Notes under the pieces: model-generated
Database searches by the model: none
Seen by the model: the letters and a program-made list of their open reading frames with translations, nothing else
Told to the model about the DNA's origin: nothing
Assembly: GCA_015063005.1 (NCBI GenBank)
Contig: SUTF01000001.1
Coordinates: 62,001-126,000, forward strand
DNA length: 64,000 nt
Reading direction: 5' to 3'
Source: Methanobrevibacter millerae
Lineage (GTDB): Archaea > Methanobacteriota > Methanobacteria > Methanobacteriales > Methanobacteriaceae
Made by a program: the position numbers and the translations under genes
Shown: in pieces, positions 56,479 to 59,770 of the stretch
Position numbering within the stretch: the stretch's first letter is position 1
How the letters are laid out: the number at the start of each line of letters is the position of its first letter

Positions 56479-57969
56479 ATGACAAAAATTGGACTTGCTT
56501 ATGTTAAAGGTGCTGTTCCAGGTTTTGAGGAATTTGGAAACTTGCCGACAGACATTGTTAAGGAAAACGGATTGGTTAATGGAAATAAGGCAAGCAAAGA
56601 ACTTGATGCATTAATCATTCCCGGCGGAACATTAATAGAATCCAATGACATCAACATGGACTTGAACCAGGAAATCCTGAAGATGGCAAATCAAGGAACC
56701 CCGATTATCGGAATCTGTGCCGGTTTTCAGTTGCTTTCAAATCAGATAGATATCGGGCGAAAGTCAGAAGTTCCAATCATAAAGGAAGGTCTTGGATTGA
56801 TTGATGTTGAATTTTCACCATTAATTACAAGCGATAGAGTTGTTGCAAAAGTGTATGACAACTCATTTTTGACAAAAAATCAAAATGAAGACGTTAAGGG
56901 ATTTCATACTCATACCTATGGAAAGGTTGTCGGTGATGCAAAGCCTCTGTTTTATTCAAAGGTCCAGAGAATGAACTATGGTGATACAAACAAGGCCGGA
57001 GACTATAACATATTTTCAGGCGCATGCAATGACGATGGAAATGTTATCGGTACCATGATACACAACATCTTAGATGAAAATCCAACAATTGTAGAAAATT
57101 TCCTTAATCAAATAGATGCAACGGATGTTGAAGATATTTACAATAGAAATAAAAGTGTAAAGGAGCATATTCAATCTGAAGTTGGAATCGGCACAAACAT
57201 AAAAATACCCCAAATTAAAATCAACGAAAAGCCAAAATTCCTAATGATAGGAAGTAACGGATCAGATTCCGGAAAAACATTTATCCTGACGGGATTAGCC
57301 GGAGCACTTAGGAAAAAAGGTTATAAGGTAGCGCTACTTAAAGTCGGTCCGGATGTTCGTGATATAATTCCTGGACTATACTTGACAAAAGATTACATGA
57401 ATGATTTCAGTTCCATTAAAATTGGACATTTGGGATGGAGCGACATAGAATCTACAATAGCCAAACTGAATTCATCAGACTATGACATTGTATTGATTGA
57501 AGGAGTAATGAGCGTGTTTACAGGATTGTTAAATGAAAAGGTTCCGTTTTCAGCTGCTGAAATTGCAATGTCATCAAACATTCCAATGCTACTGATATCC
57601 GGAGTAAACAAGGGAGGAATAGAATCCGCTGCTGTGGATTTGGTGGCACATGCCAATATGCTTGAAAAATTTGGAGTGGATGTTAAGGGAATACTTTTAA
57701 ACAAGGTATACAATGAGAATATATTTGATAATGTCGTTCCATATATTCGCAACAATTCAAATGTCGATGAAGTGTTAAGTGTTGGAAAGCTCAAATTAAA
57801 AACAAGAGGGTTTACACCTGAAATAGAAATAAGATATGACTTATTTACAAAAGCAGCACTTGATTTAGTTGAAGAATCATTAGATCTTAATAAAATAGCC
57901 AATATGGCTCAAGAAGTTAAATTTAATCGTATAATACCATTTGAAGAAATTAAAAATAAGGTGATATAA
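56479..57969 (+). CDS. CobB/CobQ-like protein with swapped domain order
   Basis: 496 residues. The N-terminal half (1-215) is a class I glutamine amidotransferase with the nucleophile in GICAGFQLL (Cys near 94) and the His in IGTMIHNIL. The C-terminal half (from about 250) is a dethiobiotin-synthetase-like P-loop domain: GSNGSDSGKTFILTGLAG, VALLKVGPDVRDI, YDIVLIEGVMSVF. CobB and CobQ have the reverse order (synthetase first). It is probably an ATP-dependent amidase, perhaps in cobamide or F430 modification, but the substrate is unknown. It overlaps the next gene by 1 base. Confidence 0.8.
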   Translation: MTKIGLAYVKGAVPGFEEFGNLPTDIVKENGLVNGNKASKELDALIIPGGTLIESNDINMDLNQEILKMANQGTPIIGICAGFQLLSNQIDIGRKSEVPIIKEGLGLIDVEFSPLITSDRVVAKVYDNSFLTKNQNEDVKGFHTHTYGKVVGDAKPLFYSKVQRMNYGDTNKAGDYNIFSGACNDDGNVIGTMIHNILDENPTIVENFLNQIDATDVEDIYNRNKSVKEHIQSEVGIGTNIKIPQIKINEKPKFLMIGSNGSDSGKTFILTGLAGALRKKGYKVALLKVGPDVRDIIPGLYLTKDYMNDFSSIKIGHLGWSDIESTIAKLNSSDYDIVLIEGVMSVFTGLLNEKVPFSAAEIAMSSNIPMLLISGVNKGGIESAAVDLVAHANMLEKFGVDVKGILLNKVYNENIFDNVVPYIRNNSNVDEVLSVGKLKLKTRGFTPEIEIRYDLFTKAALDLVEESLDLNKIANMAQEVKFNRIIPFEEIKNKVI

Positions 57970-58394
57970 TGGCTCTAAATTTAAGCCCAGAACAAGGAGT
58001 TAAACTGACAAAAAAAGATAGAGTTCAGGTAGCAAGAAAAATACGTCAAGGATGGAAAGCAAACTGTTTAATTCCAGATTATGTCTTTGACGAAAGAGGA
58101 GATATCCAGATAGGATCCGACAAAAATCGTCGTGTAGTAAAAATAGTCAAAATCCTTGATGACGGAATTCATTTTGAAAAGGCTCTTAAAAACAAGACAC
58201 TTAGGGTTCCATGGGACAAGATTTCATTGATTGAACCTACAAAGGAAGTAAGAGACGGTTTAAAAATAGGAATGTATGATGGAAAATATGTAGTATTTAG
58301 CATCTACAATTCATATAAAATACAGCAGATTACTCAATTCATAATTGAATATATAAAAAATAAAAAAATGGATAATACTAACATGTACAGTTAG
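57969..58394 (+). CDS. Conserved hypothetical protein coupled to the CobB/CobQ-like gene
   Basis: 141 residues, soluble, basic, no family recognised. Features are LTKKDRVQVARKIRQGWK and a possible small beta-barrel (VVKIVKILDDGIHFEKAL, then LRVPWDKISLIE). The start codon shares a base with the stop of the upstream gene, and GGTGAT precedes it, so the two are translated together. A role with the upstream enzyme is likely but not defined. Confidence 0.7.
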   Translation: MALNLSPEQGVKLTKKDRVQVARKIRQGWKANCLIPDYVFDERGDIQIGSDKNRRVVKIVKILDDGIHFEKALKNKTLRVPWDKISLIEPTKEVRDGLKIGMYDGKYVVFSIYNSYKIQQITQFIIEYIKNKKMDNTNMYS

Positions 58395-59077
58395 TATTCT
58401 TCTAAATATTTTTCAATAATGTCGTTTCCTCTAAGAAGGACTAAATCATTAGCCTCAGCATATTTTCGAGCATCTTCAAATGAAGTCGCTTGGCCAGTTT
58501 CACCATCCATCATTTCACAAACGACACATACTGGAGTAACTCCGGCCATTTCACACATTGCAAGACCGATTTCAGTATGACCTCTTCTGTTTTTGACTGT
58601 GTCGACAGCTCCTCTTAAAAGACAAACATGACCAGGAGACCTGAAAGTTTTACCGAATTCATCAAATCTTTCATCCCTAAACATTTTAGCCATTTCACTA
58701 ATGGTCATTGCTCTGTCGTGGTCGGTAACACCAGTGAATGATTTTCTGTGATTTACCCAAATTGAGAATGATGATCTTTCATCATATGGAATATCATTAG
58801 GAGCAAGTTCAGCTAAATTAGGATATTTTTCTGTAGCCGCTGCCATAATATCAACCATAAATGGTAAATTGATTTCATCACAGAATTTAGAACTTATACA
58901 ATTACAAATCAATCCTCCAGCATCGTTTCTCATAGTAGCGATAGATTTTGGAGTTACAAATTCAGAAGCGATAATCATATCGATTTCGCCTTCTCTGTCA
59001 TCGTTATCATATACTAAAATAAATTTACCTTGTCTTAAAGCTTCAAAGCCTTTTTCTAAATCTGTTTCATGATTCAT
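58391..59077 (-). CDS. ribB: 3,4-dihydroxy-2-butanone 4-phosphate synthase
   Basis: Converts ribulose-5-phosphate to the four-carbon unit of riboflavin plus formate. 228 residues: NDDREGEIDMIIAS (acidic metal site), HRKSFTGVTDHDRAMTI, and the His-Glu motif RRGHTEIGLAM. It is a stand-alone RibB without a fused RibA domain, as usual in archaea. AAGGAG sits 9 bases before the ATG. An FMN riboswitch lies 54 bases upstream of the start. Confidence 0.95.
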   Translation of the reverse strand: MNHETDLEKGFEALRQGKFILVYDNDDREGEIDMIIASEFVTPKSIATMRNDAGGLICNCISSKFCDEINLPFMVDIMAAATEKYPNLAELAPNDIPYDERSSFSIWVNHRKSFTGVTDHDRAMTISEMAKMFRDERFDEFGKTFRSPGHVCLLRGAVDTVKNRRGHTEIGLAMCEMAGVTPVCVVCEMMDGETGQATSFEDARKYAEANDLVLLRGNDIIEKYLEEY

Positions 59078-59110
59078 AGTAATGTCTCCTTGTGTACTAG
59101 AACCAGGGCT

Positions 59111-59134
59111 TAAAAAAAATAATCTACTTATTCT
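59111..59134 (-). terminator. U-tract after the FMN riboswitch (possible attenuator)
   Basis: Immediately behind the last riboswitch helix, the RNA reads AAUAAGUAGAUUAUU then UUUUUU: a short AAUAA/UUAUU stem and eight U in a row. In archaea U-tracts can stop transcription, so ligand binding may decide read-through to ribB. This is inferred from position only. Confidence 0.45.
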
Positions 59135-59260
59135 CTTTCATCCGGACTTTTACCGTCGGTTTTGGAATCTCACCAAATCAACACATTGACCTTCGTGCTC
59201 ATGGACTTATTTATATTAAAATCACCACCGGTGGGGAATCACACCCCGCCCTGAGAACGT
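59129..59260 (-). ncRNA. FMN riboswitch (RFN element) upstream of ribB
   Basis: The minus-strand RNA has the RFN core pieces in order: AGGGCGGGGUG, AUUCCCCACCGGUGGU, GUCCAUGAGC, AUUUGGUGAGAUUCCAAA, ACCGACGGU and AAAGUCCGGAUG. The closing helix P1 is UUCUC/GAGAA at the two ends (59253-59257 with 59130-59134). These match the FMN-sensing aptamer. It lies between ribK and ribB and should shut down ribB when FMN is plentiful. Confidence 0.9.
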
Positions 59261-59301
59261 ATTAAAAAATATATCAATCATATATAAAATACTTTATGGT
59301 A

Positions 59302-59676
59302 TCAAAACTCAATACTTACAATATCGCCGTCTTTTAATTTGAGTTCATCTCTAAGTTTCATTGAAGCAATGAATTCAATATAGTTTTCAGTGTGCTCTGT
59401 TTTTGCTGGAAATACGATTGCTCCATTTATTGTATCATTTAAAATAGCTTTAATATATTTAACAGCACCAAAACCTTCATCAGGTTTGATAATGTTTTCA
59501 CATTCATCCTTAACTTCATTAATATCATCTAAATAGTCTTGTGGAACTACAATATTCAATGTTCCGGGATAAGGCTTAAAACCACAATTCTTAATAAAAT
59601 TATCAACGTAAAAATCCTGTGAAAGGAAAAAAGCTGCTTTTCCTAATCCCGTTGTTACTTCACCATTAAGCTTCAT
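59302..59676 (-). CDS. ribK: CTP-dependent riboflavin kinase
   Basis: Phosphorylates riboflavin to FMN using CTP, the archaeal enzyme type (MJ0056). 124 residues: GLGKAAFFLSQDFYV, CGFKPYPGTLNIVV, and the tail KLKDGDIVSIEF. The ATG at 59676 has GAGGT upstream. It is followed by the FMN riboswitch and ribB, which places the product of RibK as the ligand that controls ribB. Confidence 0.92.
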   Translation of the reverse strand: MKLNGEVTTGLGKAAFFLSQDFYVDNFIKNCGFKPYPGTLNIVVPQDYLDDINEVKDECENIIKPDEGFGAVKYIKAILNDTINGAIVFPAKTEHTENYIEFIASMKLRDELKLKDGDIVSIEF

Positions 59677-59770
59677 CAAATAACCTCATTATGATTATAT
59701 AAATTAACATATTTATATTAATTATTAAAAATATAGATAACTATTAATAAACAATATGAAAGGTATTAAA

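Follow-up and report, generated by a model that had tools for sequence, protein, structure and literature searches.

An FMN riboswitch of probable bacterial descent in the leader of a native ribB gene of Methanobrevibacter

We studied the leader between the riboflavin genes ribK and ribB of the archaeon Methanobrevibacter millerae, which lies in a 64-kb stretch of contig SUTF01000001.1 (positions 62,001 to 126,000; hereafter the window). Scanning the whole window with cmscan yields a sole Rfam match, i.e., the aptamer of the flavin mononucleotide (FMN) riboswitch or RFN element (RF00050) at 59126..59262 on the minus strand. The match scores 109.7 bits (E 1.3e-24; gathering score 66.2 bits) and spans model positions 1-138 without truncation. 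In the alignment, helix P1, the inner helices and the conserved junction core are all present and in order; the two outermost pairs of P1 alone are non-standard, leaving about 6 bp. The positions that contact FMN in the F. nucleatum riboswitch also appear conserved. The window aptamer presumably binds FMN. A first-pass annotation, made from the letters alone, had placed an FMN riboswitch with complete core and P1 at 59111-59260 and suggested an Infernal search as a check. The search bears this out, and the interval was correct to a few bases. There is no second RF00050 match in the 2.16 Mb assembly.

The aptamer sits between two genes on the same strand and is oriented towards ribB, the downstream gene. 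The gene ribK (59302..59679, minus strand, ATG probably at 59676; PF01982, E 3e-34) encodes the cytidine triphosphate-dependent riboflavin kinase, which makes FMN, and ends 40 nt upstream of the aptamer. The open reading frame (ORF) of ribB (58391..59077, minus strand; TIGR00506, E 3e-73) starts 48 nt past the model end and encodes a 3,4-dihydroxy-2-butanone-4-phosphate synthase of the native archaeal long type. The element thus resembles known FMN riboswitches in its full-length aptamer, its conserved core and its place upstream of a riboflavin gene, but differs from them in that it is found in an archaeon.

The survey of related methanogens proposed in the first-pass annotation shows that the element recurs. 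In the following, g1 denotes the window genus, while other genera are numbered (g2, g3, g6, g9, g12, g16). Within g1, 61/67 genomes have an RF00050 match, which is above the cutoff in 60; of the high-quality genomes, 36/37 have a match. Of the g1 genomes without a match, two have a contig end inside the leader (G033, G037), one has a partial ribB at a contig start (G026), and in two (G029, G034) no ribB was found. Order-wide, the riboswitch is present in 6/19 genera. Widening the sample to 395 relatives in 204 genera leaves the same 94 genomes in 6 genera, all of them Methanobacteriaceae, and among 14 control genomes (four archaeal) only bacterial ones show RF00050 matches. Contamination was considered and rejected, since the element occupies a syntenic native locus in dozens of genomes. 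Two leaders are degenerate or incomplete. In the g1 genome G061 (1.5 Mb; L124, 2262-2560), the leader before ribB has decayed such that aptamer remnants and the region of ribosome-binding site and AUG remain and RF00050 no longer matches. In G042 (L065, 1158-1210), the aptamer middle is gone between two CCGG-containing stretches and the platform is intact, which is either a true deletion or an assembly error.

Behind the aptamer, the archaeal leaders follow a common order, namely a U-run, then (A)GCCCUG, then (A/G)UUC, the Shine-Dalgarno (SD) sequence and AUGAAUCA. In the window, these parts are (all minus strand) a U8 tract at 59112..59119, conserved across archaeal loci and located about 10 nt behind P1 as first described; the anti-aptamer GCCCUG at 59104..59109, which is complementary to CAGGGC in P1/J1-2; and the SD sequence AAGGAG at 59086..59091. 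Apart from rare variants, GCCCUG keeps this place in each of the six genera, and it is also found there in bacterial RFN-ribB leaders. The segment following it pairs with UUACUAUGAAUCA. The resulting sequestor hairpin (59070..59105; UGGUUCUAGUA at 59105-59095 with UUACUAUGAAUCA at 59082-59070) places the SD sequence in the loop and the AUG together with codons 2-3 in the stem, and it is the predicted minimum free energy structure in most loci. Pair counts agree: in 41 distinct arms, 84% of the cells are paired compared to at most 47% in slid registers, and 16 both-side changes are observed vs. 5.6 in shuffles. When GCCCUG is blocked, opening the SD-AUG region becomes cheaper in the predictions, at 5.0 instead of 7.9 kcal/mol in g1 and 5.1 instead of 10.6 kcal/mol in bacteria. 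Two groups of loci have divergent platforms. In M. smithii-like members (L020, L031; G006, G002), RibB starts with MSKND and the sequestor is changed (GUUUCUACAC), possibly pairing with codons 2-5. The Methanosphaera-like L047 and L054 (G110, G122) have platforms of about 200 nt without a U-run before GCCCUG, and the L047 leader bears an anti-SD-like CCUCC.

GCCCUG followed by an SD/AUG sequestor hairpin is the layout of proteobacterial ribB-type platforms. The same design is present in 15 bacterial loci from a contig scan (among the matches listed) and in most Pasteurellaceae examined. Compared to the E. coli ribB riboswitch, the window leader shares the GCCCUGAUUCUGGUAA...UUACCAUGAAUCAG platform (which reads GCCCUGAUUCUGGUAACC...UUACCAUGAAUCAG in E. 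coli), the register of SD, AUG and codons 2-3, and the target reaction; in contrast, it controls an archaeal-type RibB and has a U5-U8 run before GCCCUG. E. coli ribB is furthermore reported to use Rho (in work cited in PMC5780412), which is not expected in archaea. Some platforms of Pasteurellaceae and spirochaete RFN-ribB cassettes are nearly the same, e.g., GCCCUGAUUCUAGUAA..UUACUAUGAAUCAG in L241, but they lack a U-run directly before GCCCUG and precede a gene for a short bacterial RibB. In the assembly of Haemophilus influenzae HI-5290 (L148/L214), the ribB frame downstream of the FMN riboswitch is interrupted by an early stop codon.

With regard to the U-run, 84/93 archaeal loci have at least five U within the 9 nt that precede CCCUG, while 1.7 loci are expected from shuffled spacers and the figure for intergenic windows here is about 5%. 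In bacterial loci, at least five U are found within 16 nt in 5/40 cases, never adjacent. That is, the U-run is archaea-specific and far beyond chance. The first-pass annotation had tied it to P1. This does not hold, as the spacer from P1 to GCCCUG varies between 22 and 165 nt across loci and the U-run keeps its distance to GCCCUG; it thus belongs to the platform. Archaeal terminators need at least four U and no hairpin, and such U-tracts are bound by aCPSF1 (PMC8716108). The eight U of the window exceed this minimum, and the structure predictions suggest a run well placed for FMN-gated termination.

Pairing of the U-run depends on the state of the aptamer in these predictions. For the FMN-free state, an alternative helix is predicted (59112..59138, minus strand), in which the 3' strand of P1 and its flank (59138-59128) pair with UUAUUUUUUUU (59122-59112). 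In g1 and g2, the U-run forms hairpins with the P1 3' strand more stably than expected (46 unique spacers, mean z -2.3). The mean predicted probability of the g1 U-run to be unpaired is 0.69 when the P1 strand is held, as in the bound state, vs. 0.09 when it is free, with the shift found in 57/57 loci; the window values are 0.73 and 0.03. A family-wide covarying helix between P1 and the U-tract was tried and rejected, given that z is about 0 vs. shuffles outside g1/g2 and that swaps across genera pair equally well.

The origin of the leader can be traced by its companion genes. In g6, g9, g12 and g16, the gene behind the riboswitch encodes a short RibB of bacterial type, which is about 66-68% identical to E. 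coli RibB (two checked). In a RibB tree, the short RibBs of archaea fall into one clade (98/87) nested in bacterial RibBs (100/100), the enclosing clade comprising Enterobacterales, Pasteurellaceae, Vibrio, Shewanella, two alphaproteobacterial genera and one spirochaete. Their nearest sister among the matches listed is the spirochaete, in a weak grouping (83/63). Three g12 genomes carry short and long ribB together, the riboswitch preceding the short one. One g12 long-type ribB has one in-frame TGA (L106; G121:C121:556-1215). The g6 cassette adjoins ribK (divergent) and tfrA, i.e., it is close to the expected native place of ribB, such that a local exchange is plausible. On the tree of elongation factor 2 (EF-2), the patchy spread allows for transfers between archaea or for several losses. 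A second full-length EF-2-like gene (1163 bits) is present at L286 (G089:C1:1726920-1729079).

The window locus itself is different. Its long RibB is 28% identical to the short RibB of g16, and a tree of native RibBs places the g1/g2 protein as sister to that of riboswitch-less g3 (97/93) within Methanobacterium-like lineages, i.e., it is the native gene. It is also found in the ancestral gene order, in which ribK leads to ribB facing a cobB-like gene. The g1/g2 aptamers nevertheless cluster (100/99) with the g6, g9 and g12 aptamers and separately from every bacterial aptamer sampled, in a tree that is poorly resolved inside archaea. Both g1 and g9 have a promoter-like AAAGTATTTTA box at about -40 from AGGGC. 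Furthermore, the g1 RibB begins with MNQE/MNHE, an extension that other native RibBs do not have and that is present in the riboswitch-borne short RibBs. Taken together, this looks like a bacterial acquisition followed by capture of the leader by the native archaeal ribB. A bacterial cassette of RFN aptamer, platform and short RibB would have entered the Methanobacteriaceae; in the window genus, the leader (archaeal promoter, aptamer, platform and the first codons AUG AAU CAx) would then have been joined to the native ribB at the ancestral ribK-ribB locus. The transfer from bacteria proposed at first pass is therefore supported by the RibB tree, the aptamer tree and the platform common with bacteria, with the addition that the item moved to this locus seems to have been the leader, since the controlled ribB is native (g3 sister, ancestral order).

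Upstream of the aptamer, a promoter-like element combining a B recognition element and a TATA box (ACCATAAAGTATTTTATATATGAT; 59277..59300, minus strand) keeps a conserved spacing from AGGGC, with -39 to -42 for the majority of g1 loci and -41 for 12/15 g9 loci. Its position suggests that the leader starts at about the 5' edge of P1. The leader thus appears to be transcribed from a separate promoter between ribK and ribB, which would put ribK outside the controlled unit. RibK is a stand-alone protein of 125 aa. Its match to PRK14165 is confined to positions 91-216 of 224, i.e., the kinase half, such that the winged-helix (helix-turn-helix) half is missing. In archaea, riboflavin genes are also controlled by RbkR; while the target genes are alike, RbkR is a DNA-binding protein and the window switch is an RNA. 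The RibK of the window shows no fusion with a winged helix as in RbkR. Between the cobB-like gene and ribB, a 141 aa ORF (57969-58394, plus strand) is conserved in g1 and g3 and has no Pfam or NCBIfam match.

Based on structure predictions, we propose the following mechanism. Without FMN, GCCCUG would bind CAGGGC in the core of the aptamer. The released P1 3' strand would pair with and hide the U-run, and the SD/AUG hairpin would be weakened, such that ribB is on. With FMN, P1 would close and leave the U-run single-stranded for archaeal U-tract/aCPSF1 termination, while the freed CUGGUUCUAGUA would close on UUACUAUGAAUCA over SD and AUG, turning ribB off. The direction of control as well as the combination of sequestration and termination are suggestions of this model. 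Given the known pathways, regulating ribB would restrict the branch that serves riboflavin alone and spare the pyrimidine branch, which also feeds F420.

In summary, we are fairly confident in the joint reading, i.e., that the window element is a true FMN riboswitch, descends from bacteria and provides FMN feedback on riboflavin synthesis, with its leader joined to the native ribB and control by sequestration and the U-run. Its most far-reaching form, in which FMN decides whether RNA polymerase/aCPSF1, the archaeal terminator machinery, can reach the U-run, so that a bacterial riboswitch was adapted to termination in archaea and transferred to a native gene, is a tentative proposal with a real chance of being right. 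Several observations weigh against parts of this. Opening the SD-AUG region is costlier in the bound state in g1 (7.9 vs. 5.0 kcal/mol), but the mean probability of the AUG to be unpaired hardly differs between the states there (0.36 vs. 0.39) and does not fall with FMN in the window (0.35 vs. 0.32), so that translational control of ribB may be weak, and codons 2-3 are altered in M. smithii-like members. The U-run is clearly gated in g1, g2, g6 and g16, whereas g12 shows a small effect and g9 none; outside g1, its pairing with P1 is no stronger than that of shuffled U-regions, and the P1 strand, being rich in purines, would pair with whatever U-run is present. Finally, the ribB swap could have taken several steps.

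Purely translational control as in proteobacterial ribB, with the U-run as a structural element (anti-P1 strand) that was once CU-rich and became U-rich by drift, the genome being AT-rich, is a credible though somewhat doubtful alternative. The platform is the same as in bacteria, where a pyrimidine stretch complementary to the P1 3' strand also precedes GCCCUG (mean z -1.32), but the uninterrupted U5-U8 in most archaeal loci goes beyond composition and the modelled AUG exposure in g1 changes little. Pure transcription attenuation, where the FMN-stabilised P1 plus U8 act as a terminator for archaeal RNA polymerase, would draw on the conserved archaea-specific U-run, its higher predicted exposure in the bound state and the hairpin-free, U-tract-driven termination of archaea. 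We consider it unlikely, given that the distance of the U-run is fixed to GCCCUG rather than to P1 and that a pure attenuator has no need of the conserved sequestor hairpin including codons 2-3. The attenuation proposed at first pass thus stands with regard to the U-run and its predicted exposure shift in g1, but was incomplete in missing that hairpin. That the aptamer is a relic with lost regulation is very improbable: decay does occur (degenerate leader in G061, internal deletion in G042), but core and platform are maintained in the 60 g1 genomes above the cutoff. Even less can be said for inheritance from the common ancestor of Archaea and Bacteria, an idea with next to no credibility; the element is found across several genera, yet it is absent from 198/204 sampled genera and from the archaeal control genomes, and its companion short RibB nests inside bacteria.

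According to PMC2258182 (2007) and PMC3766115 (2013), thiamine pyrophosphate (TPP) riboswitches are the one widespread class known to occur beyond bacteria or in archaea. In our literature searches, we came across no account of an FMN riboswitch in an archaeon. The genome used in the Infernal tutorial is that of M. ruminantium, thus automatic Rfam annotation of these genomes probably exists. What is new, within the literature searched, is a known aptamer class in another domain of life, together with its archaea-specific U-run and the apparent transfer of a leader to a native gene. The locus is a natural experiment in two respects: a bacterial RNA switch that presumably works with the polymerase and ribosome of an archaeon, and a version of the same gene, unrelated by descent, that has apparently taken over a regulatory leader. 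With the element in 60/67 sampled genomes of a genus that probably includes Methanobrevibacter smithii, experiments on it may be feasible in a gut archaeon that can be cultured, and gut methanogens could be susceptible to flavin analogues acting on FMN riboswitches.
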